Part shown: piece by piece, positions 12,993 through 29,897 of the stretch
Numbering within the stretch: position 1 is the stretch's first letter
Layout: each line of letters opens with the position of its first letter
From: Synechococcus sp. CCY 0621
GTDB taxonomy: Bacteria; Cyanobacteriota; Cyanobacteriia; PCC-6307; Cyanobiaceae
Reading direction: 5' to 3'
Length of the DNA stretch: 64,000 nt
NCBI RefSeq assembly: GCF_019038465.1
Contig: NZ_JAFKRH010000030.1
Location: forward strand, 1 to 64,000
Made by a program: the position numbers and the translations under genes
Notes under the pieces: model-generated
The model's database searches: none
What the model was told of the DNA's origin: nothing
Seen by the model: only the letters and a program-made list of their open reading frames with translations

Positions 12993-13167
12993 GAACCTCG
13001 CGGCTGAAGCGGCCTGCCTGATTACGAACTGTAGCGCCGTCCTCCATTGGCTCCCTCCTACCCCCTTAGCGGCATGGGGACTTGTGGTCAGACCCACACC
13101 CGCTCGCCACCACCCAGGAGGCGGGTCTCAAGACCCCAGGCCCAGACGAATGGGCCTGCGGCGATGA
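12993..13167. promoter_or_regulatory. Divergent intergenic region between PAS operon and STAS gene, with two hairpins
   Basis: This 175-base region must hold the promoters of both the leftward PAS/kinase operon and the rightward STAS gene. Two hairpins lie side by side: GGGTCT (13123-13128) with AGACCC (13131-13136), and CAGGCCCA (13137-13144) with TGGGCCTG (13151-13158). The second ends nine bases before the STAS ATG. They could be operator or leader-RNA elements. No convincing -35/-10 pair was identified by eye. Confidence 0.5.
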
Positions 13168-13198
13168 ATGGTAAACTCATACGGATTTGAGTTTCCAT
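13168..13198 (+). promoter_or_regulatory. Hairpin covering the annotated start codon of the STAS gene
   Basis: AAACTCA (13173-13179) pairs with TGAGTTT (13188-13194), and ATGG (13168-13171) pairs with CCAT (13195-13198) with one bulged T. The ATG would be buried in the stem of the mRNA. Either this is translational control, or the working start is the in-frame GTG at 13201. Confidence 0.45.
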
Positions 13199-13545
13199 GT
13201 GTGGATGATCTGTGCATCCTGAAACCCATGGGCCTGCTCGACGCCAAGAGTGGCGCTGAGTTGCGGCAATCGGTCGGTTCAGTTCTGGCGGAGCAGGCCA
13301 GGGACATCCTGATTGATTGCCAGGGCGTTGACTTCATGGACAGCAGCGGATTCGGCGCTCTGGTTTCCGTGCTCAAACGGGTCAAGGAGCAAGGTCAGCA
13401 ACTGTTTCTTTGCGGTCTATGCAGCCAGGTCCGCATCGTTCTGGAACTCACCGGCACCGAAAAAGTGTTCACCACTTTTCCGAACAGCGAGGCATGCATC
13501 GCCGCGTTGGCTGCCGATCCATCGGACGGCTCAACCAACATCTGA
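13168..13545 (+). CDS. STAS-domain protein (anti-sigma factor antagonist type)
   Basis: A 125-residue single STAS domain of the SpoIIAA/RsbV class. The phosphorylatable serine lies in FMDSSGFGALV (Ser59, equivalent to SpoIIAA Ser58). In such partner switches a GHKL kinase phosphorylates this serine and a PP2C phosphatase removes the phosphate; the unphosphorylated form binds the kinase or another target. The gene converges on the REC-PP2C gene (22 bases between stops), which is the expected cognate phosphatase. Its core resembles the STAS domain of the 28396 fusion protein (shared KEQ, QV, TG-EKV blocks), hinting at common ancestry or a shared kinase. Start uncertain between ATG 13168 and GTG 13201. 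Confidence 0.85.
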   Translation: MVNSYGFEFPCVDDLCILKPMGLLDAKSGAELRQSVGSVLAEQARDILIDCQGVDFMDSSGFGALVSVLKRVKEQGQQLFLCGLCSQVRIVLELTGTEKVFTTFPNSEACIAALAADPSDGSTNI

Positions 13546-14745: not shown

Positions 14746-17265
14746 TCAGGCGTCCATCGGCCGCCGCTGGCGCAGAGCTTCGGTCACCCGTCCAGACTCG
14801 ACAAGCAGCTGGTCGATTCTGACCTGGGGCCAGGCCGCCGAATCGGAGCGCAGGGACTCCTCAACCTGGCCGCACAGCGTGGCCAACCGCAGGGCCCCCA
14901 AGCTGGCACTGGGGGAGCGCAGCGAATGGGCGGCGGCAATCATCGCCGTGGGATCGTGATACTGGTGGGCCATCACCACCGCCGAAACAAGTCGCATCGC
15001 GTCGTCGAGGTAGAGGTCGATGAGCTCCTGGAGCACGGCCGCCGCCCCGTCTCCCATGGCTTGCTCCAATTCGTCCCAGGCGGCCGCGTCGATCGGGTCG
15101 GCCCCTCCCCCTGCTGGCGCTTCGGGTTGGTCGCGGGGCTGGTAGTGCTCCAGGGCGTAGGTGAGCTGGGCGGGCACGATCGGCTTGGCCAGAAAGTCGT
15201 CCATGCCGGCCTGGAGGCAGGCCTGGCGATCCTCCGGACGGCCATGGGCGGTCATGGCAATGATCCAGGGCTGCACGAAGGGAGCCGGCAGACACCGGAT
15301 GGCCCGCGTGGTCGCATAACCATCAAGCTCCGGCATCTGCACGTCCATGAACAGCACGTCGAAGGGGGTCGCCTGCACGGCCGCGAGCGCCTCTGAGCCC
15401 GAAGCCACGGCCTCGGCCCGGTAACCCAGTCGCTGCAGCAACTGAAGCGCCAACTGGCGGTTCACGGGGATGTCATCCACGACGAGCAGCCGCAGTGGCA
15501 GCCGGTCGGCGAGGCGATGGGGGCCGCCCTGGGGGGCAGATTCGCGCGTCAGCGTTGGCGGCCCAGCCAGCCGCCGCTCCAGCGGGCTCTGCCATTGCTG
15601 AATCAGGGCCAGGCGGAGCTGTTCGAGTCGCACAGGCTTGGAGAGCATCACAGCCGGCGTCTTGGCCAGCGATGCCAGCTCGGACAGCTTGCACCTGTCG
15701 GCCAGGACGATCCAGGGGCGCACCTGAAGCAAGGGGTCCTGCAGAAAGGCTGGCGGGGTTGTCTCCCCTTCGCAGCACAGCAGCCGCCCATCGATGACCA
15801 CCACCCCATGGCCGAGCTCGCCGATCTGGGACTGGGCGATTCGCATGGGGATCTGGCAGAGATCGGGAGCGATCACCGACAGCCCCATCCAGCCCAGCTG
15901 CTTCTGGAGCACGGCACGCAGGGTGGGATTACCGACCAACAGCAGGATGGCGGACGCCGGCGGCACCAGGGGCTCCGAACTGGTGCATGCCTGGGGGGCT
16001 GGATCAAGATTCAGCAGCACGTTGAAGGTGAAGACACTGCCTTTGCCTTCCTGGCTGGCCAGGTTGATCGAGCCCCCCATCAGCTCACACAGGCGCCGTG
16101 TGATCGCCAGACCAAGGCCCGTGCCTCCATAGCGGCGGGCCGTGGAGGGATCGGCCTGGCGGAAGGGCTCGAACAGCTGGGGAATCAGCGCGTCGGACAC
16201 GCCGATGCCGGTGTCTTGAATCTGAAACGTGAACCGGCAGGGGGTCGGCTGGCCGGCCTCAGCGGCCTGGGGCTCCGCTGAGACCCTGACGACGATCTCG
16301 CCCTGGGGGGTGAATTTGACGGCATTGCTCAGCAGGTTCCAGAGGATCTGACGCAGGCGGGTGAGGTCGCCGATGACGGCCGTGGGCAGGCTGGGCTCGA
16401 TGTCAAGGATCATTTCCAGCGGCTTGTCCAATAGGCGGGACATGCTCAGATCGAGGGCCTCTTCGATGCAGATGCGGAGGTTGAAGCGCTGTTCATCCAG
16501 CTGCATGGCGCCGGATTCGATCTTCGAAAAGTCGAGAATGTCATTGATGATTGTCAGCAGAGAGTCGGTGCTGCTGTTGATGATCTCGACATACTCCCGC
16601 TCCATGGGCTCCAGCTTGGCGTCCTGAAGCAGACCCGCCATGCCGATGATGGCGTTCATCGGGGTTCTGATCTCATGGCTCATCATCGCCAGAAAGGTAT
16701 CCTTGGCGGCATTGGCTGCTTCAGCGGCCTGCTTGGCCGCCTCCAGCTCCGTATTGAGCGAGGAAAGGCGCTGGGTCGACTCCCGTAACTCCCCCCGCTG
16801 TGCCGTGAGAATCTCATTGAGTTTCTGGCTTTCAGTGAGTGCCACATTCCTGGCCTGAAGCAGGAAAAGAAAGTCAACCAGGGAGTCATGCAGGGGGAAG
16901 TCATTGATCTTCAGACCAAGGGACTTCAGATCCTCCAGTTGCAGCAAAAAGGGCGTCCCCACAAACAGCAACTGGTTCTGCTCTTCAAGGCAACAGATCT
17001 GACCCTTGAGTTGCAACGGGATGGAGTCAGCCTTGAGGATCACATGCCGATCCAAGCAGTCACGCAGACTGGTGAATCCCATGGGCACATCCGGGCGCAG
17101 AAGCTGGAAGTGATTGTTGAGAAGCTGCCCCAACAGATCCGGGACAGGAAGGATGCGACGCAGGACAGAGCCGGCCGACTGAATCCGCAACTCACCGTCA
17201 ACGATGAGGTGAAAGGGGAACAGAGGTTCAAGAAGATGGGCCGGTAACGGCACAGATGGTGCCAT
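14746..17265 (-). CDS. H-NOX-associated hybrid histidine kinase (HNOBA-HisKA-HATPase-REC-REC-Hpt)
   Basis: An 839-residue soluble kinase. Residues about 12-140 match the HNOBA domain that partners H-NOX sensors ([33 protein letters not shown]). A coiled coil (about 140-190) leads to HisKA with His197 in [11 protein letters not shown], then HATPase ([16 protein letters not shown]). A first receiver (about 438-560) keeps an aspartate (Asp492) but has VGN in place of the acidic pair, so it is probably inactive. The second receiver is canonical (VVDD, Asp641). A C-terminal Hpt domain carries His780 in [14 protein letters not shown]. The gene is 16 bases after the H-NOX gene and five before the REC-PP2C gene. 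Family knowledge says haem ligation in H-NOX inhibits such kinases; the sign here is not known. Confidence 0.92.
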
Positions 17266-17281: not shown

Positions 17282-17881
17282 TCATTCGTGCCTCACACCG
17301 GGGTCAGGCTGAGAAGCGTCTGGAGCTGATGCCGGGCACAGACGCACCTGGAAAAGGTCCGTGGCATCGCCCTGATCGCGAGACGCCATCTGATCGACCT
17401 CCACGGGGGTTTGAAAGCGTTTCCCCAGGCCGTGAAGCAGCCCAGTCACCATAGGCGCCAAGCCTTGGCGCTTGGATCGGTACTCCAGTTGCATGGACGC
17501 ATCGGTACTGTGCTCGCAACGAAACGAGGGCGGTTGCAGCTCAGGAAAGGCAACGGCGGCGCGGGCGTGCAGATTGTCAAGTTGATCCAGGAATTCCGGC
17601 AAGGTTTCACCCGTGCTTTCAAGAAGCTGCTCGTAACCCTCACTGGCCGTGTAGGTGATCCAGTACTCCCCAAAGGCCTGCATGATCTGATCGCCCGAAA
17701 GGCCCAGTTCCTGCGTGGCCGCCGCCACCAGCCGATGGGTCACGTCGTCAGGATAGGCCTGGTAGGTGGAGAAGAAATCCAGATCCTGGAGGTCGGCCCT
17801 GTCCTTGATGCGCTGCCACACCTCCTCACCATGGTGGGTGGTGACCATCTGCTGGATGGCCCGGTTGACAAGCCCGTACAT
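17282..17881 (-). CDS. H-NOX haem nitric oxide/oxygen sensor protein
   Basis: A free-standing H-NOX domain, 199 residues from the ATG at 17881 (MYGLVNRAI, the usual family start); ATGs at 17887 and 17890 are alternatives and the upstream extension is unlikely. It shows the proximal haem histidine in NLHARAAV (His105), PPSFRCE, and the haem-propionate motif Y-x-S-x-R (Tyr134, Ser136, Arg138). Such proteins bind NO, and some bind O2, and control a neighbouring kinase or cyclase. Here the next gene encodes an HNOBA kinase, a standard pairing. It lies 85 bases downstream of the Wzy-like gene on the same strand, placing gas sensing within the EPS gene run. NO versus O2 selectivity cannot be decided by eye. 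Confidence 0.93.
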
Positions 17882-17966: not shown

Positions 17967-19361
17967 TCAGACGGTTGGATCTATCACCATGGCAACCTCA
18001 GCACTGGAACCATCAGCGCCGGGCAAAGAGCCCACAGGGTCTCCAAAAGTCTCCAGCAGAGACAACTTGTTTTCCTGTAAAGCCATACCCATCAAAATCA
18101 TTCCAGGCCAGTAGAGATAGACAAGAATCTCCAGGTTTTCCCCAAATGTGTAAAGAAAGAGAATCACGATCATGCTGAGGCCCACAGACCCGAGCTGATA
18201 GCGCGGATTTGATGCACGTCGCACAAGGTCTAACAGTGTGACTGCCATTGGCAACGCCAGCGAAAGGAAACCAACAGTTCCCTTGACAAACAACAGGCCA
18301 GCCCAGGTGTGATGGGAGCCAATCGGCATCGCCTCCACCAAGTGGGGGCCCGGTTCAACAATGCCATGACCCCAGAGAGGAGCATCGCGCTCCCAACGGT
18401 ACAAAGCAATCCGTTTCAGGGCCATGCGTACACGGGTTGAGCCTGCCCGCGCTCCCTTGAAACCTTCCCAGAAGTCACTAAAAAGCTGAAGCAGTAGCGG
18501 AGAGAGTATACCGCTAATATATGCAGTTGCACCTAACAATATCAATGTTGCTGGCTTGCGGATGCGTGCGACGATAAAGACGAAGATAGGGATAAGAATA
18601 ATCGCCACTTGTGCCAGTCTGGACTTGCAGATAAAACACATGAGGATCGAACCAAACAGGCCAGCGGCCTTCCAGGTTCGGTTCCTCTCCAGGAGGCTTA
18701 GCATAAAGTTCACATTGCCCACAAAACCCAGTGCAGGCCCCCAAGGGGTAAACAGTCGCCAGCGCAGATCGCCCGTGCTTCCATCAATCTCATAGAGGGG
18801 TACATCAAAGAATTCATTGCCGGGGCCGCCGATTGCCCTCAAAGGGGATACGTAGAGAACTTGGGGAAGACCCAAGTGAGGTGTGAGCAGCAGGATGGGA
18901 GTAATGATCAGAGTGTGCAAACCCAAAATGCAGATGGCACGACTGAGGAGCTGGCTGCGAATATTGAGGCAACCGGCAAGCGGGTACAAGGCAAGTGCAG
19001 CCCAGCCCTTGGCCCAGCCGATCGACGACTTGACAATCAGCGCAACGCCCAGATTAAAGTCAATATGCCCAAACAGCAGTGCTACTTCCATCATCAGCAT
19101 TCCGAGCACCCAAAGCCAGATCACAGGTGAGATTGTGATCTCCTCGTTTTCCTCTGGGTGATCAATCCATGCCAGCTTCTTAATTATTAGGCAAGCCAAG
19201 AGTAGCCAGCCAAGGACTGAACCAACCACATAAAGACCTCCGAACAACCAGATCGGATAGGTGTAGATGATGGCATACCAGACCAATCTCTCCGGCCAGT
19301 TCTGAGGTTGAATATCTGAGGAGGGAAAGAATGAAGGATGACTCCAGAACTTAATGCCCAT
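17967..19361 (-). CDS. Wzy/O-antigen ligase-like polysaccharide polymerase
   Basis: A 464-residue polytopic membrane protein with about ten to twelve hydrophobic segments. The loop block WGHGIVEPGPHLVEAMPIGS followed by HHTWAGLLFVKGTVG resembles the Wzy_C/O-antigen ligase region, where repeat units are joined in the periplasm. It lies 15 bases after the co-polymerase gene in the leftward export run. Codon use is more AT-rich than the flanking core genes, consistent with acquired DNA. It could be the EPS polymerase or a ligase; the full Wzx/Wzy-type gene set around it favours polymerase. Confidence 0.78.
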   Translation of the reverse strand: MGIKFWSHPSFFPSSDIQPQNWPERLVWYAIIYTYPIWLFGGLYVVGSVLGWLLLACLIIKKLAWIDHPEENEEITISPVIWLWVLGMLMMEVALLFGHIDFNLGVALIVKSSIGWAKGWAALALYPLAGCLNIRSQLLSRAICILGLHTLIITPILLLTPHLGLPQVLYVSPLRAIGGPGNEFFDVPLYEIDGSTGDLRWRLFTPWGPALGFVGNVNFMLSLLERNRTWKAAGLFGSILMCFICKSRLAQVAIILIPIFVFIVARIRKPATLILLGATAYISGILSPLLLQLFSDFWEGFKGARAGSTRVRMALKRIALYRWERDAPLWGHGIVEPGPHLVEAMPIGSHHTWAGLLFVKGTVGFLSLALPMAVTLLDLVRRASNPRYQLGSVGLSMIVILFLYTFGENLEILVYLYWPGMILMGMALQENKLSLLETFGDPVGSLPGADGSSAEVAMVIDPTV

Positions 19362-19376
19362 GAGCGCGGTGATACA

Positions 19377-20894
19377 TCACGATGAGATCAGGTTGGATAG
19401 TTTTCGAATCCATGGCTTCCGAATCCAGAGAATCCAAAGCCCCAGACTCGTAAATACTGAACCAATGGCAGATCCAGCCAGAAGCAGGCCCCTCTTAGGG
19501 GAACTGGGCTTCGTGGGCAGGCTCGGATCCACAGCCATCTGAATCAGTGGGAAGGCCGCAAAGACATCCGCTTGGCCAAGGTCAAGTTTGGCGAGAGTCG
19601 AGGCAAAGACGGCTTCGGCAATCTGTTCGTTCCGCCTGAGTCTCTCCAGGGTGGGCTGGCGTTGCGACATTCGCTCAAGCCGACCATCCAGTACAACAAT
19701 CTGCTGATCCAACTTATTAACCTGAGCTGCCGCTCCGATCGCCTCAGCTTGATACGTCACCAGATTCTGAAACAGGGCATCTCTTCCTGACCCGGAGCTG
19801 GCGAGGGCCAGTTGAGAGAGGGTACTGCCCATAGGCTTACGGCCCAGCACTTGCTGTGCGCGACGATCAAGAGCCAATTCGGCAGCCTTCTGACGCTTGA
19901 CCTCCTTGATAATGCGAGGGTGATTGGGCCCAAACTTGGCCGTCTGGACCTTGAGGATAGCCGTGGCTTCACTGAAATCCTTCAGGTTCTGCTGAAAGAT
20001 CTGGTCGACCTGCAGCTTGAAGGCCTCCGCTGCTTCAGTGGCATTGAGGCCAAGATTTCTACTGAGCTTCTGGAGTCGTCCTTCAGCTTGGGCCTGCTGG
20101 GCAGCAAACTCGGCGCGTTGGCGCCTCAGTTGCTCAATGTTAGTCGAAATGGTTTCAACCTGTTCCGTGGAGTTCAGGCCAGACTTAAGCTTATAGGCAG
20201 AAACTTCTTTCTGTGCCTCTTCCAGTTTGTCACGCGATTTCAAGAGGATGTCTTGTGTAGGCCCATCTCGCTGGCCCATCTCGCTGATCCGAAGCTGATT
20301 GAGCCGAGACACCATAGCGTCATAGAGAGCAAAAGCCTTGCGGCGTGACAACTGCGGCGACGATCCCGACACTTCAATCTGCATCAAAGTGGTATTGTCA
20401 ATATTCTTGATACGTGGTTCGCCAAACTCATCACTGGACAGACCAGCATTCTTTGCTGCCTGGCGAAGTACCTGTTCGCTCGTAAATATGAATTCATAAT
20501 TGGCCCTGGGATCAAAGGTAGACGTTGCCACACCCGCTGATCCGCTGGAGGCAGTCGCTTGCCCAATTTCCGGAAGATTTACATTCACCGAACTGATGCT
20601 TCCAGGCAGGATCAAAGCAAAGTCACTCTTATAAGTTGGTTTCACCGTAGCCAGGATCAGCAGGCTCGTTCCCCATATGAAGATATTTGCTGATCCACAC
20701 ACCAGGAGATAACGGCTCCAGCGCAACTTGTCCGTACGGCTCAGACTTTGCCACCAAGCACTGGGAGACTTTGGCCGAGGAAGGGCAACATTGCGCAACT
20801 GCTCGGTGAACAGCCGCTGCACCTTACGAACCGGCTCCAGTCGTGATGCAGACCCGCTACTTGGCGGTGGTGACTTGGGGGGGCCGTACGTCAC
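19377..20894 (-). CDS. Wzz/GumC-type polysaccharide co-polymerase without tyrosine-kinase domain
   Basis: A 505-residue inner-membrane protein. Membrane helices lie near residues 62-85 and 475-492, with a long periplasmic region between them containing extended coiled coil (about 205-420). The segment YKSDFALILPGS after the first helix and FGPNHPRIIKEVKRQ in the coiled region are typical of the chain-length family. The protein ends with WIRKPWIRKLSNLISS; there is no C-terminal Walker-type BY-kinase domain and no separate BY-kinase gene in the cluster. It sits ten bases after the export gene. Confidence 0.85.
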   Translation of the reverse strand: MTYGPPKSPPPSSGSASRLEPVRKVQRLFTEQLRNVALPRPKSPSAWWQSLSRTDKLRWSRYLLVCGSANIFIWGTSLLILATVKPTYKSDFALILPGSISSVNVNLPEIGQATASSGSAGVATSTFDPRANYEFIFTSEQVLRQAAKNAGLSSDEFGEPRIKNIDNTTLMQIEVSGSSPQLSRRKAFALYDAMVSRLNQLRISEMGQRDGPTQDILLKSRDKLEEAQKEVSAYKLKSGLNSTEQVETISTNIEQLRRQRAEFAAQQAQAEGRLQKLSRNLGLNATEAAEAFKLQVDQIFQQNLKDFSEATAILKVQTAKFGPNHPRIIKEVKRQKAAELALDRRAQQVLGRKPMGSTLSQLALASSGSGRDALFQNLVTYQAEAIGAAAQVNKLDQQIVVLDGRLERMSQRQPTLERLRRNEQIAEAVFASTLAKLDLGQADVFAAFPLIQMAVDPSLPTKPSSPKRGLLLAGSAIGSVFTSLGLWILWIRKPWIRKLSNLISS

Positions 20895-20904
20895 AACCTT
20901 CTTC

Positions 20905-21951
20905 TCATGGCGTAATGACGTCGTAAATCAATGCGCCTGGGACGACAAAATCCCTGATCAGTCCAAGGACATCACGGACGTTCGTGACGCCGGAATCATA
21001 ACAAGCTACGGCATCATTGGCCATCAGATAAGGATTGGAGAGACTGTCTTTGGAACGCCGTATGAGCTCTTCAACGCCTCGTTCCAGAACATTGGTTTTC
21101 CCTGTCTGTGGGTCGGTGGTGACCAGAATCGCGCGTCGGCGGGCATTGGTCCACAAAGCTCCACCGGCACAATTGCCAGATACCACGGCCTGGGAGAAGC
21201 GGGAGCCGTAGGGAAAGGAGGTGGCATCGCGACCAATCCCAGCTACAGCGTTGCCGGCGGCGGGAACGGTAAGGTTGGAGATAAAGATCTTAACTCCAAC
21301 CGGCGTGATCTGAGATGGTCGCACAATCAAAGGGTTGATGATTCCTGAATCGGGAACCACGACCTGATCGCCAGCGATAAGAGGCAAATCAATGAATGGT
21401 TCACCAGTAAAGATCCCTGTGAGATCAATTCTCTGACGTCGGCTGCCACGGATCAACTCAACAGATCGGATGTCTGCCGTGGGCATCACACCGCCAGCCT
21501 GTCGGATTGCTGAGGAAAGAAATCTTTTGAATGGGGCCTGCCCTGACTGCTGCACAGGCGCTTGCGTCTGCTCAGCATCGCTCCATTCGTTGATCATCAC
21601 TCGGCCTGGCTGAAAGGTGGAGCCCGTAACAAAGACTTCTACCGGGGCCCATTGCACGACGTTAACACTAACTTTCAAAAAGTTTGGCTGGAAGAATCTT
21701 TCCCTAATGAGTACTTCTCGAATTCGCTGTTCCACCTGATGGGGCTCCAATCCAGTAACAGGAATTCCTCTGACATAGGGAAGTTCAAGTTCTCCATGGA
21801 GATTGACATCGAATATCCCGCTGAATTCCTCACCTTCCGGAATGGTGACCTTTACCCGGTCTCCGGCCGACAGAGGCAACGCAAAGGCTTGACCCACTGT
21901 TGATGTCAGTGCCGCAAGCATGAATGCAAAAGAAGCCAGACGCTTCAGCAT
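20905..21951 (-). CDS. Outer-membrane polysaccharide export protein (Wza-like OPX)
   Basis: A 348-residue exported protein. The signal peptide MLKRLASFAFMLAALTSTVG ends near AFA; no lipobox cysteine is visible, unlike E. coli Wza. A Poly_export domain begins at LSAGDRVKVTIPEGEEFSG, followed by SLBB-type repeats (VEVFVTGSTFQPGRV). It forms or gates the exit channel for EPS. It is the first gene of the leftward run and is divergent from the pyruvyltransferase gene, with 178 bases between starts. Confidence 0.88.
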   Translation of the reverse strand: MLKRLASFAFMLAALTSTVGQAFALPLSAGDRVKVTIPEGEEFSGIFDVNLHGELELPYVRGIPVTGLEPHQVEQRIREVLIRERFFQPNFLKVSVNVVQWAPVEVFVTGSTFQPGRVMINEWSDAEQTQAPVQQSGQAPFKRFLSSAIRQAGGVMPTADIRSVELIRGSRRQRIDLTGIFTGEPFIDLPLIAGDQVVVPDSGIINPLIVRPSQITPVGVKIFISNLTVPAAGNAVAGIGRDATSFPYGSRFSQAVVSGNCAGGALWTNARRRAILVTTDPQTGKTNVLERGVEELIRRSKDSLSNPYLMANDAVACYDSGVTNVRDVLGLIRDFVVPGALIYDVITP

Positions 21952-22129
21952 TGGTAGTGATCAGGGGGCGACGAACGCATCTGAACTCAATTTAGGCTCA
22001 ACGGCACTTAAGAGGTATCATAGCCTAGATGCCGATGAAGCAATCATTGCTCTCCAGGAACGCAGAGGATAAGGCCAAAGGCTCACCGCTGATGCGCCCT
22101 AGCCAGCGAAGCTTCCGTCTTGACCCACG
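21952..22129. promoter_or_regulatory. Divergent control region of the EPS cluster
   Basis: The 178 bases between the export gene (leftward) and the pyruvyltransferase gene (rightward) must contain both promoters. The part around 21985-22025 is AT-rich for this genome. A possible rightward -10 is TATCAT at 22016-22021 with TTAGGC 18 bases upstream as a weak -35; this is a tentative reading. No clear operator repeat was seen. Confidence 0.4.
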
Positions 22130-23224
22130 ATGATGCAGATGACCTCCTGTCCGCCTGGGCAAATCGGGCTGATCAACGCCTACAGCACCCTCAATCTGGG
22201 TGATGCGGCTATCTATAGCGCCTTCAGTACCTTGATGCCTGAAGCAGTACTCGTGGCCTGCGTGCAGGACACCGAACCTGACGCCAAGCTCGGTGTTGCT
22301 TTCCAGCAAAGGCGGCCTCGACAATGTGCCGCCTACGTGAGCGTGGGTGGGGACATCTTCAATAATTCTAGAGAGTGGTTGATCACCAAGGCTTTCCTGC
22401 TGAACCTAGCTGAACTGACCCGCCACCCCAGCCGCACGATCCTTTTTGGCCAATCGATTCCGCGCTCCTGCCACGGCCTCAGCTTCTTCGCCCTGTGCCA
22501 GGGCCTGAAACGCCTGGCGGCTGTCTGTGTTCGTGATGCCGAAAGCCACCGCCGCTTGCGGCAGGCCGGGGTGGAGGCCCGGCTGTCGTTCGACACGGCC
22601 TTCGTTCTGCAGAGTTCAGACTCGGCGCAGCGTGCGGCAGTCTCTCTATTCAAGGGCATTGATCTCGATCCATCTCAGGCCGCGGTGGTCTCGGTGCGCG
22701 CCTTCGACAGCATGTACACCCACGACAACCAGAGTTTCGTCCAGCGGATGGCGGCCCTCTGTCGTGGGCTGCTGCAGGAGGGACTCACACCGACCATGCT
22801 GATTCAGTCGCGTGCCTATGGCGCCGACAACGATCTCTCGGTTGCCCACGCGATCCAGGTACAGGCCCCGGGAACCGCCGTGCTTGATCCGTTCCTTCCG
22901 GATGGGTTGGTGCCCAGCTGGCAACTGGCCATGGCCGTGTTCGCCATGGCCCATCGGGTAATCGCCGTCCGATACCACACCGCCGTTCTGTCCCTGGCGG
23001 CCGGCAAGGTCCCTTTCCACCTGCACTATTCCAACAAGGGGCGCGATCTGTGCCAACGCCTGCATCTGCCAGGTAGTGACCTGGGCCTGTTCGATCCGGG
23101 CCGAACCCTCGACGCCATCCTGGCGAGCCCACCCCAGGGCTTCGATCATCAGGCGATCAGGGATCAAGTACGGCGTGATTTCGCCTGGGCCATGGGGCAG
23201 CTTCCTCTGATGGGGTCACGTTGA
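22130..23224 (+). CDS. Polysaccharide pyruvyltransferase family protein
   Basis: A 364-residue WcaK/CsaB-like enzyme expected to add a pyruvate ketal from phosphoenolpyruvate to a sugar, giving the polysaccharide negative charge. Family blocks are IGLINAYSTLNLGDAAIYSA near the N-terminus and AVRYHTAVLSLAAGKVPFHL near the C-terminus. First gene of the rightward EPS run; only one base separates it from the next gene. The sugar acceptor is unknown. Confidence 0.85.
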   Translation: MMQMTSCPPGQIGLINAYSTLNLGDAAIYSAFSTLMPEAVLVACVQDTEPDAKLGVAFQQRRPRQCAAYVSVGGDIFNNSREWLITKAFLLNLAELTRHPSRTILFGQSIPRSCHGLSFFALCQGLKRLAAVCVRDAESHRRLRQAGVEARLSFDTAFVLQSSDSAQRAAVSLFKGIDLDPSQAAVVSVRAFDSMYTHDNQSFVQRMAALCRGLLQEGLTPTMLIQSRAYGADNDLSVAHAIQVQAPGTAVLDPFLPDGLVPSWQLAMAVFAMAHRVIAVRYHTAVLSLAAGKVPFHLHYSNKGRDLCQRLHLPGSDLGLFDPGRTLDAILASPPQGFDHQAIRDQVRRDFAWAMGQLPLMGSR

Positions 23225-23225
23225 G

Positions 23226-24215
23226 ATGCGAGTGCTGCATGTCCTTCCAAGTGGCGGCATGGGCTGGAGCGGCGGCATCCGACCCACCTTGCGCAGCCTC
23301 GCGGACTCTGAGCTGGGGAGGCACCACAGCTTTCAGGTGACTGGTCAGGATGAACTCAGGTCCAGCCTGGCCGAATGGCCTGCGGATCTGCTGGTCTGGC
23401 ACGGGGCCTGCTCCTGGCGAAACCTGCCGCGGCTTCTGAAACGGCCAGGACGGCGCCAGATCCTGTTTGAGCACCATTACTGCGCCGGGTTCGAACAACA
23501 AAGCGTCTCTTCCCCACGCCGATTCCGCGCCATGTTGCGACTGTCCTACGCCTGCATGGAACGGGTTGTGGCGGTTTCCGAAGCCCAGCATGCCTGGATG
23601 ACCCAGGCTCAGCTGTTGCCACCGAAGCGGGTCCGCCTGCTTCTGTCTTCCCGCCAACTGAACGATTTCCTGGCTCTGGCGCCTCCTTCGCCTGTGCCAT
23701 CAGGCCAGCCGCTGCGTTTGCTGGCCTACGGCCGGCTCACTCCCCAGAAGGGCTTCGATCTGCTGATTAAAGCCATGGCACGGTTACCCGAGGCTCCACT
23801 TGAACTTCTGCTTGTCGGTGATGGTCCCCAACGGCAGCAGCTGGAACAGCTAGCGGCCGCCGATGCACGCATCACCCTGCTGGGCTCCCGAGCTGACATT
23901 CCCCTGCTACTTGCCGACGCCGACATCGTGATCATTCCCTCTCGGTGGGAACCCTGGGGCAATGTCTGCCTCGAGGCACGCGCCGCAGCCAGGCCAGTGA
24001 TCGTGACGCCGGTCGATGGCCTTGTGGAGCAGGTCGAGGGAAGTGGTCTGCTCACGGAGGCTGCAACAGAACAGGCACTGGCAGCCACTCTCGAGTCCCT
24101 GCTGCAAAGCACCGAAGCGCAGCGCAGCCAATGGTCGCAAAACGGTCGCCGGTCTGCGGCCCGCTCCTGGCAGGGCTATCTGGACGGCTGGGCAGCGTTG
24201 TTAGCTGAGCCGTGA
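23226..24215 (+). CDS. Glycosyltransferase family 4
   Basis: A 329-residue GT-B enzyme. The C-terminal donor-binding half is clear: LAYGRLTPQKGFDLLIKAM, LLLVGDGPQ, and the E-x7-E motif EPWGNVCLE. The N-terminal HVLPSGGMGWSGGIRPT is an acceptor-side loop of the family. It adds one sugar to the growing lipid-linked repeat unit at the cytoplasmic face. It starts one base after the pyruvyltransferase stop and its TGA shares a base with the flippase start. Confidence 0.87.
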   Translation: MRVLHVLPSGGMGWSGGIRPTLRSLADSELGRHHSFQVTGQDELRSSLAEWPADLLVWHGACSWRNLPRLLKRPGRRQILFEHHYCAGFEQQSVSSPRRFRAMLRLSYACMERVVAVSEAQHAWMTQAQLLPPKRVRLLLSSRQLNDFLALAPPSPVPSGQPLRLLAYGRLTPQKGFDLLIKAMARLPEAPLELLLVGDGPQRQQLEQLAAADARITLLGSRADIPLLLADADIVIIPSRWEPWGNVCLEARAAARPVIVTPVDGLVEQVEGSGLLTEAATEQALAATLESLLQSTEAQRSQWSQNGRRSAARSWQGYLDGWAALLAEP

Positions 24216-25489
24216 TGACGCTCTTCGAACAGCTTCGGCAACGGTTGGCCGGCGATCGCTTTGTACGCAACACCGGCTGGATGGGCCTGGGTGAGGTGGG
24301 AATTCGTGTCTCCCGCCTGCTGGCCACGGTGATCCTGGCGCGACTGCTCAGCCCAGAGGACTACGGCCTTGCCGCCATCGTGCTGATGACCACGGAATTC
24401 GTACGCGTATTCACCCGCAACGGCATCGGCGACAAGCTCGTCCAGGCCGATGGGAAGGAAATCAAAGAGCTCTGCCAGACGGCATGGTGCATCAACTGGC
24501 TGATCGGCATTGGACTGTTCCTGTTGCAGCTGGCCGGATCATTCGTCGTGGCCCATTTCTACGGAAACGACCGTCTCACTTTGCCGATCATCGCCGTTGG
24601 CTTCACGTATCTGATCTATCCCCTGGCGATGGTACAAACGGCACTGGTGCGCCGCGACAACCGACTCAAGATCTTTAGTTTGACAAATTTAACCCAGGTT
24701 GTGGCTGACAACATCCTCACAGGCATCCTGGCCTTGCAGGGATTCGGCATGTGGGCGATCGTTCTGCCCAAGTTGCTGGTGGCGCCGGTGTGGGTGGGAA
24801 TGATGCTTCACTACGAGCCTTGGCGGCCTCGCGCGGTGTTCACTCTGCAACGATGGCGCAACATTCTGGGATTCGGCAGCCGCATCCTTGGGGTGGAACT
24901 GCTCAACACTTTTCGCGAAAACGTCGACTATCTCCTGATTGGTCGCTTCATCGGCATGAAGGCTCTTGGTGTGTACTATTTTGCCTTCAATGCTGGCCTT
25001 GGCCTAAGCCTGAGTGTCATCAATGCTCTAGGAGTGTCGCTCTACTCTGACCTCTGCGAAATCCGCTCCGATTCTGAGCTGTTGCGAAGGCGCTTTAACC
25101 AGAATCTGCTCACGATTGCAAAGGTTGTCTTCCCTTTGGTGATCATTCAATCCTTGCTGGCGCCCCTCTATGTTCCAATCATCTTCGGCCAGAAGTGGGT
25201 GGATCAGGGTGCCGTGCCGATCCTGATCATCATTTGCATCTCGGCACTCTCACGCCCATTTGCCAATGCGGCGTCGATGCTGTTCCGAGCCATCGGCCTG
25301 CCTCAGGTGGATCTTTGGTGGAATCTGGGATTCACCCTCTTGTTGACGGTGGCGGTGGTCTTTGGTGCCTCCTACGGCACCCTGGGAGTAGCGGTTGCCG
25401 TGATGGCTACCCACCTTATACTGCAGCCGCTCTACGCTGGCTGGGCGCGCCAGATCGTACTGACCAAACCGGCCGGCTGGGTGCGTTAA
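24215..25489 (+). CDS. Wzx-type oligosaccharide flippase
   Basis: A 424-residue membrane protein of the MOP superfamily (polysaccharide export branch) with about 12 helices. Recognisable segments are NTGWMGLGEVGIRVSRLLAT, ILARLLSPEDYGLAAIVL and GKWVDQG-like C-terminal loop residues. It should flip undecaprenyl-linked repeat units to the periplasm for the Wzy-like polymerase. ATG 24215 overlaps the previous TGA by one base; a GTG at 24212 would add one residue. Confidence 0.87.
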   Translation: MTLFEQLRQRLAGDRFVRNTGWMGLGEVGIRVSRLLATVILARLLSPEDYGLAAIVLMTTEFVRVFTRNGIGDKLVQADGKEIKELCQTAWCINWLIGIGLFLLQLAGSFVVAHFYGNDRLTLPIIAVGFTYLIYPLAMVQTALVRRDNRLKIFSLTNLTQVVADNILTGILALQGFGMWAIVLPKLLVAPVWVGMMLHYEPWRPRAVFTLQRWRNILGFGSRILGVELLNTFRENVDYLLIGRFIGMKALGVYYFAFNAGLGLSLSVINALGVSLYSDLCEIRSDSELLRRRFNQNLLTIAKVVFPLVIIQSLLAPLYVPIIFGQKWVDQGAVPILIIICISALSRPFANAASMLFRAIGLPQVDLWWNLGFTLLLTVAVVFGASYGTLGVAVAVMATHLILQPLYAGWARQIVLTKPAGWVR

Positions 25490-26446
25490 ATGAAGGGGTG
25501 TCCCGGGATCTCAGTCGTCATTCCGGCCTACAATGCTGCTGCATTTGTTGTCGACACGATTGCTTCCGTTCAAGCCCAGACCTATTCGGACTGGGAAGCG
25601 TTGATCATCGATGATGGTTCGACGGACGAGACCGCGACCCTGGTCAAGGAGATGGTGAACCGAGACTCTCGACTGAGGCTGCTTTCCGTTGAGAACCAGG
25701 GGGTTTCAGCCGCCCGAAATCTGGGTGTATCCCTGGCGCTTGCGCCCTGCATCGCCTTTCTCGACGCCGATGATTCCTGGAGGCCATCCAAGCTACGTCG
25801 ACATCTGGAGCATCTAGCATCACTACCAAATCTTGGCGTCAGCTTCGATCGGGTGGAGTTCCTTTCGTCTGCCGGCAAACCCACAGGCCATTTTTCCAAA
25901 TCTCGCCTTCATGACCTGACACCTCAGCATTTTCTCTATGAGAATCCAACCACCACCACATCCACGTGGGTTGTGCGGCGCTGCCTGTTTGAACAGGTTG
26001 GCGGCTTCCTGCCGGCGATGAGCTACTCCGAAGACCTGGAATGGCTGTTGCGGGTTCGCTGCAGTGGCTGGATGATTGCCGGATTGGAGGATGTGCTAAC
26101 GGGCTATCGCACCAGTGAAGCTGGGCTTTCGTCTGAGCTGAGCAAGATGGAGAAGGGATGGAATCGGCTGGTACAACAGGCCCGTGTTTACGCGCCTGAT
26201 CTTGTCAACCGCCATTTCGCAAGGGCCCAGGCTGTCCACCTTCGCTACCTGGCTCGCCGCAGCCTGCGCTTGAAAGCTTCCGAGGTCTCAGAGGGGGTGG
26301 ATTTCATGAACCGTGCGATCCAGTCCGATCCGACTCTGCTGCTGCGCCAGCCCTTGCGAAGCTGGTCCACGATGCTGGCTGTTCAACTTCGCTGGCTGCT
26401 GTCCAAGCTGGCAATGCCAGCTGCGAAGCGGAGAAGCGTGCCATGA
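25490..26446 (+). CDS. Glycosyltransferase family 2 (copy 1)
   Basis: A 318-residue GT-A enzyme with ISVVIPAYNAAAFVVDTI, IIDDGSTDET and the metal-binding FLDADDSWRPSKL. It starts directly after the flippase stop and overlaps the next gene by four bases. Its plan is shared with the next gene (the DITPQ/DLTPQ block, YLARR segment, and C-terminal LL-QPLRSW/LLEEPRRT region), so the two are probably tandem paralogues with different acceptors or donors. Confidence 0.87.
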   Translation: MKGCPGISVVIPAYNAAAFVVDTIASVQAQTYSDWEALIIDDGSTDETATLVKEMVNRDSRLRLLSVENQGVSAARNLGVSLALAPCIAFLDADDSWRPSKLRRHLEHLASLPNLGVSFDRVEFLSSAGKPTGHFSKSRLHDLTPQHFLYENPTTTTSTWVVRRCLFEQVGGFLPAMSYSEDLEWLLRVRCSGWMIAGLEDVLTGYRTSEAGLSSELSKMEKGWNRLVQQARVYAPDLVNRHFARAQAVHLRYLARRSLRLKASEVSEGVDFMNRAIQSDPTLLLRQPLRSWSTMLAVQLRWLLSKLAMPAAKRRSVP

Positions 26447-27471
26447 CCCAACCTCTCGTTTCAGTCATCATTCCTGTGTATCAGAGTGCCGCAACGGTGG
26501 CCGAAAGTCTGCAATCGGTAATTGACCAGACCTACAGCCACTTGGAGATCCTCGTGGTGGACGACGGTTCTATGGATCAGTCGATCTCCATCTGCGAGCA
26601 GTTTGATGATTCCCGAATCTGCATTCTGCATCAACAGAACCGGGGCCTGGCCGGGGCCCGGAACACAGGCATCCGGCAGGCCCAAGGGGAGTTCCTGGGA
26701 TTTCTGGACAGCGATGATCTGTGGCTGCCCACCAAGGTGGAGCGCCATGTGGCCCATCTGCAAGCGCGGCCGGAGGTGGGGGTCAGCTTTTCCCGCTCCG
26801 GATTCATCGATGAGGACTCCAGACCGATCGGGATCTACCAGATGCCGAGGCTGCAGGACATCACCCCGCAGATCGTTTTCTGCCGCAATCCGATCGGCAA
26901 TGGCTCGGCGGTGGTGATCCGCCGGGACGTCTTTAGCGCCATTCGCTTTGAGGCGAATCTCTATGGCGACGTGGAAGACTTCTACTTTGACGACAGCTTC
27001 CGTCAGTCCGAAGACATCGAATGCTGGCTGCGGATTGCGCTCCAGACCCACTGGCGCATCGAAGGCCTCCCCGAGGCGCTGACGCTTTACCGCATCAGCG
27101 ACGGTGGACTCTCGGCCAACCTGATGAAGCAGTACGCCTCCTGGGAGCGGGTTCTGCTCAAGACCGAAGCCACCCACCCGGAGTTCGTCGCCCAGTGGGG
27201 CTCCAAGGCCCGCGCCTATCAGCTGCGCTACCTGGCCCGCCGCGCCACCCGCCAGCGGGACGGCGCCTTGGCCGTGCGTCTGCTGCACCAATCCCTGGCC
27301 ACCGACTGGAGGGTGCTGCTGGAGGAACCGCGACGCACCCTGATCACGCTGCTGGCGGCCTACCTGCTGCGGCTGTTGCCGGAGGCTCCCTATCGCTGGC
27401 TGGAGGGTCTGATGCTGCGCTCCACAGGAGCCAGTCAGCAGCGGCGCATGCGTGGGGAACTGAGCCGATGA
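26443..27471 (+). CDS. Glycosyltransferase family 2 (copy 2)
   Basis: A 342-residue GT-A enzyme with VSVIIPVYQSAATVAESLQS, VVDDGSMDQS and FLDSDDLWLPTKVERH. It is related to the preceding GT2 along its whole length, with a longer insertion near residues 165-190 (FEANLYGDVEDFYFDDSFRQ). Start and end both overlap neighbours by four bases (ATGA). Predicted to add a sugar to the EPS repeat unit. Confidence 0.87.
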   Translation: MTQPLVSVIIPVYQSAATVAESLQSVIDQTYSHLEILVVDDGSMDQSISICEQFDDSRICILHQQNRGLAGARNTGIRQAQGEFLGFLDSDDLWLPTKVERHVAHLQARPEVGVSFSRSGFIDEDSRPIGIYQMPRLQDITPQIVFCRNPIGNGSAVVIRRDVFSAIRFEANLYGDVEDFYFDDSFRQSEDIECWLRIALQTHWRIEGLPEALTLYRISDGGLSANLMKQYASWERVLLKTEATHPEFVAQWGSKARAYQLRYLARRATRQRDGALAVRLLHQSLATDWRVLLEEPRRTLITLLAAYLLRLLPEAPYRWLEGLMLRSTGASQQRRMRGELSR

Positions 27472-27923
27472 AGGTCTTGCTGGTCTGCTCATCAGGGGGT
27501 CATTTCAAGGCGCTGCAGCAGTTGGCCGATTTCTGGCAGCGCCATCCCCATCTCTGGGTCACGTTTCGAACCGCCACCACGGAAACGGCCCTGGCCCAGG
27601 AGCAGGTGCTCTGGGCCCACAGCCCCACGAACCGCAACCTGCCGAATCTGCTGCGCAACCTCTGGCTCGCCTTGCAGGTGATCCGCACCGAGCGGCCGGA
27701 CGTGATCCTCTCCACCGGCGCGGGAGTTGCCGTTCCCTTTCTTCTGATCGGTAAACTGTTTGGGTGCAAGACCGTGTTCATCGAGTCCGTGACCCGCATT
27801 CAAACGCTCAGTCTTTCAGCACGAATCGTCCATCCATTTCTTGATATTCTCTACGTTCACTGGCCCCAGCTGCAGCTTCGTTATCCCCGCGCCGAGCTTG
27901 TCCAAAGCAAGATCGGATCATGA
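27468..27923 (+). CDS. PssD/Alg14-like glycosyltransferase subunit
   Basis: A 151-residue protein of the Alg14/PssD family. It begins MKVLLVCSSGGHFKAL and has PDVILSTGAGVAVPF and KTVFIESVTRIQTLS, the family blocks. In rhizobia PssD and PssE together add glucuronic acid to the first lipid-linked sugar; in eukaryotes Alg13/Alg14 make a split GlcNAc transferase. ATG 27468 overlaps the previous stop; the longer frame is a shadow of the GT2 gene. The partner gene follows with a four-base overlap. Confidence 0.85.
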   Translation: MKVLLVCSSGGHFKALQQLADFWQRHPHLWVTFRTATTETALAQEQVLWAHSPTNRNLPNLLRNLWLALQVIRTERPDVILSTGAGVAVPFLLIGKLFGCKTVFIESVTRIQTLSLSARIVHPFLDILYVHWPQLQLRYPRAELVQSKIGS

Positions 27924-28399
27924 TTCTCATCAGCGTCGGTACGGAGCAGTTCCCCTTCAACCGGCTGATGCAGTGGGTGGAGCTGTTGATCCAACAGGAA
28001 CTGGTCAACGAGGACATCGTTGTTCAGTATGGTACGTGTACCTTTCTCCCCAGTGGCAGCACGGTCTATCGGTTGGTGAAGGAAGACACCTTTCGGTCGC
28101 TGATTCGTAAGGCACGTGTGGTGATTGCCCATTGCGGGGAGGGCACCGTGCTGTTACTGGATGAGATGCAGCAGCCCTTCATTCTTGTGCCACGCAGCGT
28201 TCGCTACCAGGAGCATGTTGACGACCACCAGGTGGAACTCGCCCTGGCGCTGACGGAAATGGGTGTGCCGATTGCCTGGAGTCCGGGTGATCTGGTTCGC
28301 TTTCTCCAGGCCCCCTTCAAGACGTCGATCAGTGATGTTACGGACAGTTCCGCCCAGTCCCTGTGTCGCAGTCTCCAGAGCCATTTTTCTTCGACATGA
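27920..28399 (+). CDS. PssE/Alg13-like glycosyltransferase subunit
   Basis: A 159-residue catalytic partner of the preceding protein. MILISVGTEQFPFNRLMQWV and IAHCGEGTVLLLDEMQQP followed by VPR are the Alg13/PssE signature with the nucleotide-sugar site. Expected to add the second sugar of the repeat unit, directly after the phosphoglycosyl transferase encoded by the next gene. Overlaps both neighbours by four bases. Confidence 0.86.
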   Translation: MILISVGTEQFPFNRLMQWVELLIQQELVNEDIVVQYGTCTFLPSGSTVYRLVKEDTFRSLIRKARVVIAHCGEGTVLLLDEMQQPFILVPRSVRYQEHVDDHQVELALALTEMGVPIAWSPGDLVRFLQAPFKTSISDVTDSSAQSLCRSLQSHFSST

Positions 28400-29400
28400 T
28401 GGCGCGTCAGTCCCCCTCCCACCCTGCTTTCGTCAGGACCATCCAGAACGGCATCCTGTTTCTCCAGCTGCCATCACGGCTCACCGTGAGCGAAGCGGTG
28501 GCTTTCCGTGCCGGATTCGCCGATTGGCTGGCTGAGGTGGATGGTCTGCGGCAGGTGGTTCTGGATTTCGGCCGCACCGCCGTCATCGACAGCAGCGGCA
28601 TCGGTGCCCTGGTGGGCGCCATCAAGACCGCCAAGGAGCAGGACGTTCCCCTCTGCGCCTGGAGCCTGCACCGGCAGGTGTTCCTGGCGCTGCAGATGAC
28701 CGGCCTGGAGAAGGTATTGCCGGTGGCGGCCCATTCCGAGGGCCTGCTCCCCCAGCTCTCGCACGTCGAAGACCAACGCCCCCCCCTGACCCACCCATCG
28801 GTGCGTTCCGGACTCAAGCGTTTCATGGACATCTGTGGTGCGCTGATCGGACTTGGCGTCACGGCGCTGCTGATCCTGCCGATGGCGTTGGTCATCCGTC
28901 TGGACAGCCCGGGGCCGATCCTGTTCAGCCAGGTGCGCTGCGGTTGGATGGGCCGCCATTTCCGCATCTGGAAGTTCCGCTCGATGGTCAGCAATGCCGA
29001 GGTACTCAAAGGCACGGTGGCGAACCAGGCCCAGGGGGCGTTCTTCAAAAACGACAACGACCCCAGGATCACCAAAGTGGGGCGCATCCTGCGCAAGACC
29101 AGCCTCGATGAGCTGCCCCAGTTCTGGAATGTGCTGATCGGTGACATGAGCCTGATCGGAACCCGGCCAGCCACACCCGATGAGGTGCTTCGTTATGCCA
29201 TTCCAAGCTGGCAGCGCTTTGATGTGCGTCCCGGGCTGAGTGGCGAATGGCAGGTGAGTGGCAGGTCATCGATCCGTGATTTCGAAGATGTGATCAGGCT
29301 CGACCTCAGATACCAACAGAATTGGAGTCTGGCCTATGATCTAAAACTAATTGTCAAAACATTCCTTGTGCTTCTGAGCAAGGATTCGGGGGCGGCATGA
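28396..29400 (+). CDS. STAS domain fused to a phosphoglycosyl (sugar) transferase
   Basis: A 334-residue two-domain protein. Residues about 13-115 form a STAS domain with the phosphorylation motif VIDSSGIGALV (Ser66). Residues about 140-330 form a bacterial sugar transferase of the WcaJ/PglC class: a membrane-associated helix (near FMDICGALIGLG), KFRSM, the catalytic Asp-Glu pair in TSLDELPQFWNVL, and RPGLSGEWQVSGRS. Such enzymes place the first sugar phosphate on undecaprenyl phosphate. The usual N-terminal helical bundle of WcaJ is absent; a partner-switch domain takes its place. ATG 28396 overlaps the previous TGA. The gene overlaps the RsbW-like kinase gene by four bases. Direct control of EPS initiation by serine phosphorylation is inference. 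Confidence 0.92.
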   Translation: MMARQSPSHPAFVRTIQNGILFLQLPSRLTVSEAVAFRAGFADWLAEVDGLRQVVLDFGRTAVIDSSGIGALVGAIKTAKEQDVPLCAWSLHRQVFLALQMTGLEKVLPVAAHSEGLLPQLSHVEDQRPPLTHPSVRSGLKRFMDICGALIGLGVTALLILPMALVIRLDSPGPILFSQVRCGWMGRHFRIWKFRSMVSNAEVLKGTVANQAQGAFFKNDNDPRITKVGRILRKTSLDELPQFWNVLIGDMSLIGTRPATPDEVLRYAIPSWQRFDVRPGLSGEWQVSGRSSIRDFEDVIRLDLRYQQNWSLAYDLKLIVKTFLVLLSKDSGAA

Positions 29401-29897
29401 ACCCGGACTTATCAAACGATACAGGCCAAACCAACAGCGAACTGTCCGTCAACAGCGATCTCGGTGAACTGGACACCGTGCTGTCTTGGTTTAAACGACA
29501 ACAGCACCCTGACATTCCTTCAGATCTATGGATGCAGGCTCAGCTGGCACTGGTGGAAGGTTTCACCAATGCCGTTCGTCATGCCCATGCCCACCTGGCT
29601 GCCCCACCCCAGGTGCATCTTTCGCTACAGCGATCCAGCGAGGCCTTCTCTATTCAGATCATTGATCATGGCGAACCCTTCGCCTTCGCAGCGGCACTGG
29701 CCAGAGTGGAAGCGGAGATTGCAGCCAGTGGTCATGATCCCCTGGCCCGTGAGGCCCATTGGGGACTGGTGATGTTTCTGAAGCTTCAGAACGAGTATGG
29801 CTGGACCATCAACCATTGCAGGCGCGATGACGGGACCAACGGCCTAGCCTTGAGCCACCCCCTCAGGGCCGATGAATCGGTTGTCGGGTCATACTGA
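29397..29897 (+). CDS. RsbW-like GHKL serine kinase (HATPase_c_2)
   Basis: A 166-residue stand-alone ATPase of the anti-sigma-factor kinase class. The N-box is ALVEGFTNAVRHAHAH (Glu54, Asn58), the G1 box IIDHGEPF (Asp90), and AHWGLVMFLKL the GL-containing lid region. Such kinases phosphorylate STAS serines and often bind a second partner. It is translationally coupled to the STAS-transferase gene, making that STAS domain its likely substrate; the free STAS protein at 13168 is another candidate. No sigma-factor gene is nearby. Last gene of the rightward run; its 3' end overlaps an oppositely oriented ORF. Confidence 0.87.
   Translation: MNPDLSNDTGQTNSELSVNSDLGELDTVLSWFKRQQHPDIPSDLWMQAQLALVEGFTNAVRHAHAHLAAPPQVHLSLQRSSEAFSIQIIDHGEPFAFAAALARVEAEIAASGHDPLAREAHWGLVMFLKLQNEYGWTINHCRRDDGTNGLALSHPLRADESVVGSY

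Follow-up and report, generated by a model that had tools for sequence, protein, structure and literature searches.

A STAS domain fused to a polysaccharide-initiating transferase, the candidate output of a serine phospho-switch in Synechococcus and other cyanobacteria

We analyzed a stretch of 64,000 nucleotides from the unicellular cyanobacterium Synechococcus sp. CCY 0621 (positions 1 to 64,000 of contig NZ_JAFKRH010000030.1 in assembly GCF_019038465.1), referred to here as the window, in which a single gene encodes a STAS domain fused to a phosphoglycosyl transferase (PGT). The gene for this fusion protein, P0001, is followed directly by one for an RsbW-like serine kinase, P0002, and the window also encodes a SpoIIE-type phosphatase, a second, free STAS protein, and a predicted H-NOX sensor. 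We observed directly which genes are present, which domains they encode, how they are linked, and how well the acceptor and catalytic residues are conserved. Judged from these sequences, the genes probably amount to a complete phospho-switch acting on serine, with the initiating enzyme of exopolysaccharide (EPS) synthesis as its output, and this suggests that slime (EPS) production is switched directly at the enzyme in many cyanobacteria. Partner switches are best known for regulating sigma factors. A STAS domain fused to a priming PGT, in a module that also holds a kinase, a phosphatase, and a free STAS protein, names a candidate target of another kind, and this target can be tested by one mutation, at Ser66 of the STAS domain.

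The fusion protein and the kinase encoded beside it

The two genes at the core of the module are as follows.

28396-29400, plus strand: STAS-PGT fusion P0001 (Pfam, alignments, structure model, fold search, and solved-structure search)
29397-29897, plus strand: RsbW/SpoIIAB-like serine kinase P0002 of the HATPase_c_2 family (Pfam, box conservation, and fold and sequence matches)

P0001 is 334 amino acids long. Residues 15-113 match the Pfam STAS family (PF01740, E 2.5e-12, 46.9 bits against a cut-off of 22.6), and residues 141-327 match Bac_transf (PF02397, E 7.8e-63), the PGT domain; between them lie a variable linker at about residues 114-131 and a conserved HPS at 133-135. No single Pfam or NCBIfam family spanning STAS plus PGT was shown for P0001, and none of the 24 solved sequences that it matched contains both halves: the STAS half matched SpoIIAA, RsbV, and other STAS chains, and the PGT half matched WbaP and PglC. 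The PF02397 domain with its Asp-Glu pair places P0001 among the monotopic phosphoglycosyl transferases. In the structure model, the blocks covering residues 11-110 have predicted local distance difference test (pLDDT) values of 77-91, with a helix that starts at Ser66, and from residue 111 onward all blocks are below 65, so that the transferase half, modeled with 20 sequences, is poor. The best Foldseek matches of the STAS half were SpoIIAA, TM1442, and RsbV chains. Because SulP-type STAS domains occur lower in the same list, the modeled fold by itself would not prove a signaling role, and the conserved serine seems the more telling feature.

That serine, Ser66, sits within the motif VIDSSGIG and pairs in the alignment with the Ser of MDSSGLG in solved SpoIIAA (1th8_B). 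It is the same residue in all 107 distinct fusion sequences, which were taken from loci L005-L114 with the frameshifted L019 left out, and since the mean top-residue frequency over the STAS domain is only 0.57 (109 rows), the conservation of Ser66 goes beyond chance. The residue that follows it varies (102 Ser, 3 Cys, 1 Met, and 1 Thr). Asp238-Glu239, which we take to be the catalytic dyad of the PGT, is intact in P0001 and retained in 106 of the 107 distinct fusions. An earlier note on this DNA, made from the letters alone, had proposed an N-terminal STAS domain with an intact serine motif and an intact transferase Asp-Glu, and all three proposals held up. The sole exception at the Asp-Glu site is the second STAS-PGT of one polysaccharide locus (L100, 11681-12649), in which His-Lys replaces Asp-Glu and which may be a catalytically dead, regulatory copy.

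The start of the 166-residue kinase P0002 overlaps the end of the fusion gene by four bases (ATGA), as the earlier note had said, and its identification as RsbW-like is borne out as well. Pfam HATPase_c_2 (PF13581) is above cut-off with an E-value of 1.8e-12, and E54, N58, D90, G92, and G123, which we assign to the N, G1, and G2 boxes, are unchanged in 20 of 20 aligned kinases. The best solved match to the P0002 profile is RsbW (6m36, E 6.7e-12), and the structure model (pLDDT 88) has SpoIIAB (1th8_A) as its best fold match, with RsbW matched too.

Upstream regulatory genes and the proposed mechanism

Further switch genes, absent from the earlier note, lie 11-15 kb upstream of the fusion, beyond the polysaccharide genes.

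13168-13545, plus strand: free STAS-only protein with an MDSSG motif (Pfam STAS E 3.7e-21; NCBIfam ant_ant_sig above cut-off)
13568-14740, minus strand: REC-SpoIIE/PP2C-type phosphatase, RsbU-like (Pfam Response_reg E 1.2e-23; SpoIIE PF07228 E 1.5e-35)
14746-17265, minus strand: H-NOX-associated hybrid histidine kinase with HNOBA, HisKA, HATPase_c, REC, and Hpt domains (Pfam)
17282-17881, minus strand: predicted H-NOX heme-NO/O2-binding sensor (Pfam HNOB PF07700 E 3.3e-53; solved-structure match)

The free STAS gene is convergent with the phosphatase gene, and F56, M57, D58, S59, and G61 of its product are kept in all 20 of the rows compared from related loci. This protein is a candidate competitor or antagonist in the switch. 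At a related locus (L042, 9503-10186), one open frame contains two STAS domains, a tandem duplication of the free STAS. The REC-SpoIIE protein is a candidate eraser of the STAS phosphoserine. By sequence, the window therefore holds the HATPase_c_2 kinase, the STAS domain with acceptor serine, and the PP2C/SpoIIE-type phosphatase of a partner-switching system of the Rsb/SpoIIA type. The hybrid kinase likely passes a phosphorelay to the REC-SpoIIE protein, since an Hpt domain suits an outside receiver and the nearest one is the receiver of the phosphatase. The H-NOX protein, whose start at 17881 was placed from an alignment (a longer open frame reaches 17959), is 57% identical to Alr2278 of Nostoc (PDB 4iae, 2o09, and others), and its LDNLHAR motif aligns with Alr2278. 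The His in this motif is presumably the proximal heme histidine, and the protein is a probable nitric-oxide sensor. Beside the switch, window positions 8088-13097 encode a GAF-GGDEF protein, two hybrid histidine kinases, and a small PAS-looking frame with no Pfam match, and in one other genome (G383, locus L232) frames with receiver domains also adjoin the module; these genes are possible further inputs.

In the mechanism that we propose, the H-NOX protein would bind a diatomic gas, most likely nitric oxide, and control the adjoining hybrid histidine kinase, which, via its own receiver and Hpt domains, would relay phosphate to the REC-SpoIIE receiver and so set the activity of this phosphatase. 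The RsbW-like kinase would phosphorylate Ser66 of the fusion and its counterpart in the free STAS protein, and the REC-SpoIIE phosphatase would take the phosphate off both. Unphosphorylated free STAS protein would compete for the kinase in the manner of RsbV. With its STAS domain unphosphorylated, the PGT would load the first sugar-phosphate onto the lipid carrier, and either phosphorylation of Ser66 or binding of the kinase would halt it. The reading of the STAS domain as a gate is strengthened because the window also holds the phosphatase, the putative free STAS competitor, and the H-NOX input. Taken to its full extent, the proposal is that of a gas-sensing partner switch ending in an enzyme, which would run from H-NOX through a phosphorelay and a PP2C phosphatase to the STAS serine and gate the first committed step directly and fast, with the PGT being the target of SypA and HmpV also and with an output for H-NOX proteins of the Alr2278 type. 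This wider scheme we put forward as tentative.

We assign activity to the unphosphorylated enzyme by analogy, because SypA of Vibrio fischeri and HmpV of Nostoc punctiforme act unphosphorylated. These two, the nearest polysaccharide-linked cases described in the portions of the sources at hand, also speak against the opposite logic, in which the kinase would bind the unphosphorylated STAS domain and block the PGT, and active enzyme would be released once Ser66 is phosphorylated or the free STAS protein takes up the kinase. Such an arrangement is unlikely, although the four-base overlap of the kinase and enzyme genes would suit a stoichiometric inhibitor, the module does have a second, free STAS protein, and the sign differs among systems, phosphorylated BtrV being described as binding its kinase in an excerpt of a review (PMC8256260).

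We give very little credence to a transcriptional role, in which the switch would act on a sigma/anti-sigma partner and the STAS-PGT protein would be a feedback titrator reporting the amount of priming enzyme. Sigma factors are indeed the endpoint of classical partner switches as the same review excerpt has it (PMC8256260), but here the acceptor domain is carried by the enzyme itself, and no sigma factor was noticed among the window genes looked at, no search aimed at sigma factors having been made.

Linkage, spread, and origin of the fusion

We sampled 42 genomes of the genus, the window's included, and called neighborhoods with home-made profiles built from the window genes and their relatives. 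The fusion is present in 15 of the 42 genomes, intact in 14 and as two overlapping frames in G009, and a close REC-SpoIIE gene occurs in these 15 and in no other (Fisher p 1e-11, a value that ignores kinship and linkage). In 12 of the 15, the two genes share a contig and are no more than about 20 kb apart; in G002, G012, and G032, they are on separate contigs. The kinase was found in 16 genomes, these 15 plus G034, in which a 57-residue frame matching the fusion profile precedes the kinase near a contig end. Free STAS adjoins the phosphatase in all 14 genomes that could be tested; the stretch from the remaining one, G003, ended too early.

Complete modules are also found in heterocystous cyanobacteria. 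In Trichormus NMC-1, the genes for STAS-PGT, kinase, STAS, H-NOX, H-NOX kinase, and REC-SpoIIE lie on one strand (8182-16328 of L240). All six genes are adjacent in Richelia, Tolypothrix, Nostoc UCD121, and Nostoc FACHB-280, where STAS-PGT, kinase, and STAS are followed by REC-SpoIIE, H-NOX kinase, and H-NOX on the opposite strand, and in Calothrix 7103 the module parts lie within 12.4 kb. The H-NOX proteins of these six heterocystous modules are 72-81% identical to Alr2278.

Several observations weigh against the mechanism proposed above, and some of them concern the sensor. Among the 15 genus genomes with the fusion, H-NOX was not found in five and is near the fusion in 10, of which G003 has a broken copy and G018 a fragment; two other genus genomes (G020 and G030) have H-NOX without the fusion. 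In the class sample, H-NOX occurs in 44 of 388 genomes, with 45 matches, and four of these (G000, G009, G270, and G383) adjoin such a REC-SpoIIE gene plus free STAS. The fusion was seen in three of the four, the G383 stretch having ended before the expected place; G270 and the Richelia genome of L037 appear to be one and the same. The module was not seen in the other 41 stretches, some of which are only 3-6 kb long, and one H-NOX that is 75% identical to Alr2278 (L209) has no module in its stretch; no gene identical to Alr2278 was among the regions compared. From the genus and class counts, we reject H-NOX as an obligatory part and conclude that it is an optional input of the switch.

The remaining contrary points concern the kinase and phosphatase. 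By script, 39 of the 108 fused rows of our tree (below) have a kinase gene within 1.2 kb, or 40 with the window's own row corrected. The earlier note had proposed a search for adjacent kinases; about two thirds of the rows have none beside the fusion, though some stretches end near the fusion gene. The kinase family is also present in class genomes without the fusion and therefore serves other targets too. At five loci (L235-L239), chosen because earlier scans had placed kinase and phosphatase together there, both genes are adjacent in five of five without the fusion, and free STAS is present in two; the genomes G061, G069, and G086 carry the fusion elsewhere, and none was shown in G074 or G084. 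G009 and G014 each have an interrupted REC-SpoIIE gene. Further SpoIIE and STAS proteins are encoded in the window's own genome, so that cross-talk is possible, and no kinase of this family was found at E 1e-8 or better in a Rhabdochromatium genome with an intact fusion (L092).

Two side observations belong with these. The window's genome has a second STAS, kinase, and SpoIIE set, at 15393-17379 of contig C40 (G000), which is a possible source of cross-talk. At the G009 locus (L133), the fusion is split between STAS and PGT, there is a TAG within the REC-SpoIIE gene, and no genes for a flippase, polymerase, chain-length, or export protein turned up in the 14.5 kb covered; this looks like joint decay of the switch and the pathway, or like assembly errors.

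STAS domains such as those of MlaB or SulP hold partners, and the STAS half of the fusion could similarly be a passive docking or oligomerization domain, for example one that ties the PssD/PssE-like pair encoded just upstream to the PGT, while the partner switch controls a sigma factor or some other target. The fused rows lacking an adjacent kinase, the absence of a detected kinase from Rhabdochromatium, and three loci that join STAS and PGT to Alg13/Alg14-like parts in one frame would all fit such a domain. The invariance of Ser66 tells against it, because the serine is kept even where there is no adjacent kinase and a passive domain has no obvious need for it, and so does the tie of the fusion to phosphatase and kinase across the genus; we regard a passive STAS domain as quite unlikely. 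Conservation of Ser66 in fusions without a neighboring kinase argues either for phospho-control of these enzymes in trans or for some other function of the serine.

Outside the genus, the search for the STAS plus Bac_transf architecture that the earlier note had called for showed that, of 38 genomes from other families of the class, at least 17 carry the fusion (14 recognized by the span of the match, plus G068, G082, and G096). Together with the 15 genus genomes, this count leads us to reject the fusion as a one-off or an assembly error. No fusion was found in other genera of the window's own family (0 of 19 sampled genomes, best match no better than 2.4e-41). In a genome scan, the best 80 loci comprised, by their titles, 79 from cyanobacteria and one from Rhabdochromatium, and the distribution, which rests on these best 80, is a lower bound; the nearest named relatives of the window locus among them are Cyanobium and Synechococcus.

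Our tree contains 131 PGT domains (108 fused and 23 not) after identical PGT sequences were dropped, and its bootstrap has not settled. On it, the label "nonfused" requires two changes, one of which is the frameshifted G009 copy, and a single origin of the fusion is the simplest reading and a probable one. Nearest to the fused group stand 13 rows without STAS (L140-L151 and L157), hand-picked from the top STAS-less matches. All are short PGTs with open frames of 233-292 amino acids, and so a STAS domain was joined onto a short PGT. Long PGTs of the WcaJ class carry an N-terminal helical and CoA-binding-like region, and the earlier note had supposed that STAS replaced such an N terminus. We reject this on the strength of the short neighboring rows; in addition, P0001 falls short of the WcaJ-class NCBIfam models, with 217.6 bits against a cut-off of 410.75 for TIGR03023 (WcaJ) and 270.2 against 295.55 for TIGR03025. 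In the order of Rhabdochromatium, matches that cover the full length and are 73-100% identical occur in four of 147 genomes, its own among them, and each of the four encodes STAS and PGT in a single frame. These make contamination an unlikely source of the Rhabdochromatium fusion and suggest that the fusion passed from cyanobacteria to this order.

Known systems and the surrounding polysaccharide genes

A close parallel is SypE/SypA of V. fischeri, in which a response-regulator-controlled kinase/phosphatase sets the phosphorylation state of a STAS protein and controls polysaccharide biofilm (PMC4517449, PMC8256260). The acceptor, S56 of SypA, lies in the STAS domain, and S56A works whereas S56D does not (PMC4517449). 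The window shares with it a STAS acceptor serine, here under predicted kinase/phosphatase control, and a link to polysaccharide. The available portions of those sources describe SypA as STAS-only with a target said to be unknown, and SypE as kinase and phosphatase in one protein; in the window, by contrast, STAS is fused to a PGT, kinase and phosphatase are separate, and there is an apparent H-NOX phosphorelay input. HmpU/HmpV/HmpW of N. punctiforme, which is connected with polysaccharide and with the motility of hormogonia (Riley et al. 2018, via PMC8256260), is a cyanobacterial set that likewise consists of a phosphatase, a STAS protein, and a kinase, as judged from its description. HmpV is described as active when unphosphorylated, its target too is said to be unknown, and the review excerpt mentions neither a STAS-enzyme fusion nor H-NOX (PMC8256260). 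With RsbU-RsbV-RsbW and SpoIIE-SpoIIAA-SpoIIAB, the window shares the same three kinds of protein by fold and sequence matches; the output of those systems is a sigma factor, whereas here the STAS domain sits on an enzyme.

The earlier note had known of no described example of a STAS domain built into such an enzyme, and in this it needs amending. The pairing of STAS with a glycosyltransferase is itself already in print, as an excerpt of a review, citing Wang et al. 2007, names all4160 of Anabaena PCC 7120 as a glycosyltransferase with an N-terminal STAS domain (PMC8256260), and the heterocyst envelope polysaccharide depends on all4160 according to the portion of a second source at hand (PMC4390870). 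The likeness lies in the N-terminal STAS on an enzyme described as a glycosyltransferase, and the difference is that neither excerpt mentions a switch or coupling to a kinase (PMC8256260, PMC4390870). The kinase-free fusions of Nostocales are candidate orthologues of all4160. Open-licence papers gave no match for STAS fused with a sugar transferase or phosphoglycosyl transferase, and no description of a kinase-coupled STAS-PGT or of H-NOX upstream of a partner switch, a weak negative given the open-licence scope. None of the matches listed from a search of the literature on H-NOX, cyanobacteria, biofilm, and SpoIIE had H-NOX and SpoIIE together, the synechan paper does not mention STAS, and our literature searches found no paper stating a downstream target of Alr2278. 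From the sequences compared, the apparent novelty is a partner switch whose STAS domain is built into the effector enzyme, plus, in some lineages, H-NOX input.

Because the fusion links STAS to PGT, the PGT becomes a candidate target of switches of the SypA/HmpV type. If this is true, the fusion would act as a "Rosetta stone" and the initiating PGT would also be the target of SypA and HmpV acting in trans, H-NOX proteins of the Alr2278 type, a much-crystallized family, would gain an output, and there would be an easy point of access to the formation of slime, biofilms, and blooms by cyanobacteria.

Polysaccharide repeat-unit and export genes occupy 17967-27471, between the two halves of the switch, and are followed by two subunit genes that lead into the fusion.

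17967-19361, minus strand: Wzy_C-like protein (30.7 against 31.7 bits, below the family cut-off)
19377-20894, minus strand: chain-length-like protein (34.5 against 278.85 bits, below the family cut-off)
20905-21951, minus strand: export protein (Pfam/NCBIfam)
22130-23224, plus strand: pyruvyl transferase (Pfam/NCBIfam)
23226-24215, plus strand: glycosyltransferase, "GT4" being our own label (reading and home-made profiles)
24212-25489, plus strand: flippase (Pfam/NCBIfam)
25490-26446, plus strand: GT2-type glycosyltransferase (label from reading and home-made profiles)
26443-27471, plus strand: GT2-type glycosyltransferase (Pfam/NCBIfam)
27468-27923, plus strand: Alg14-like (PssD/Cps14F) subunit of a probable second glycosyltransferase (Pfam Alg14 on 27492-27920; NCBIfam PssD)
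27920-28399, plus strand: Alg13-like (PssE/Cps14G-like) subunit (Pfam Glyco_tran_28_C; NCBIfam PssE)

The PssD match scores 119.1 bits (cut-off 110), and the PssE match, at 79.2 bits, is below its cut-off of 120. The Alg14-like, Alg13-like, STAS-PGT, and kinase genes are consecutive, each with an ATGA overlap, so that the Alg13-like gene overlaps the fusion gene by four bases. Three loci go further: in L031, L152, and L153, one open frame of 674-741 amino acids joins Alg13-like, Alg14-like, STAS, and PGT parts, which were identified by profiles in L031, by Pfam in L153, and in L152 by profile for STAS-PGT and by likeness for the Alg parts. As predicted from these frames, the first two transferases and the switch would be in one polypeptide. 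When window positions 17.9-26.5 kb are compared with locus L126 (G004), the regulatory flanks are 93-96% identical, and the glycan genes between them are 66-72% identical where they match and stand in another order and orientation. By sequence, the switch seems to stay constant while the repeat-unit genes that it encloses are exchanged, a form of EPS cassette exchange.

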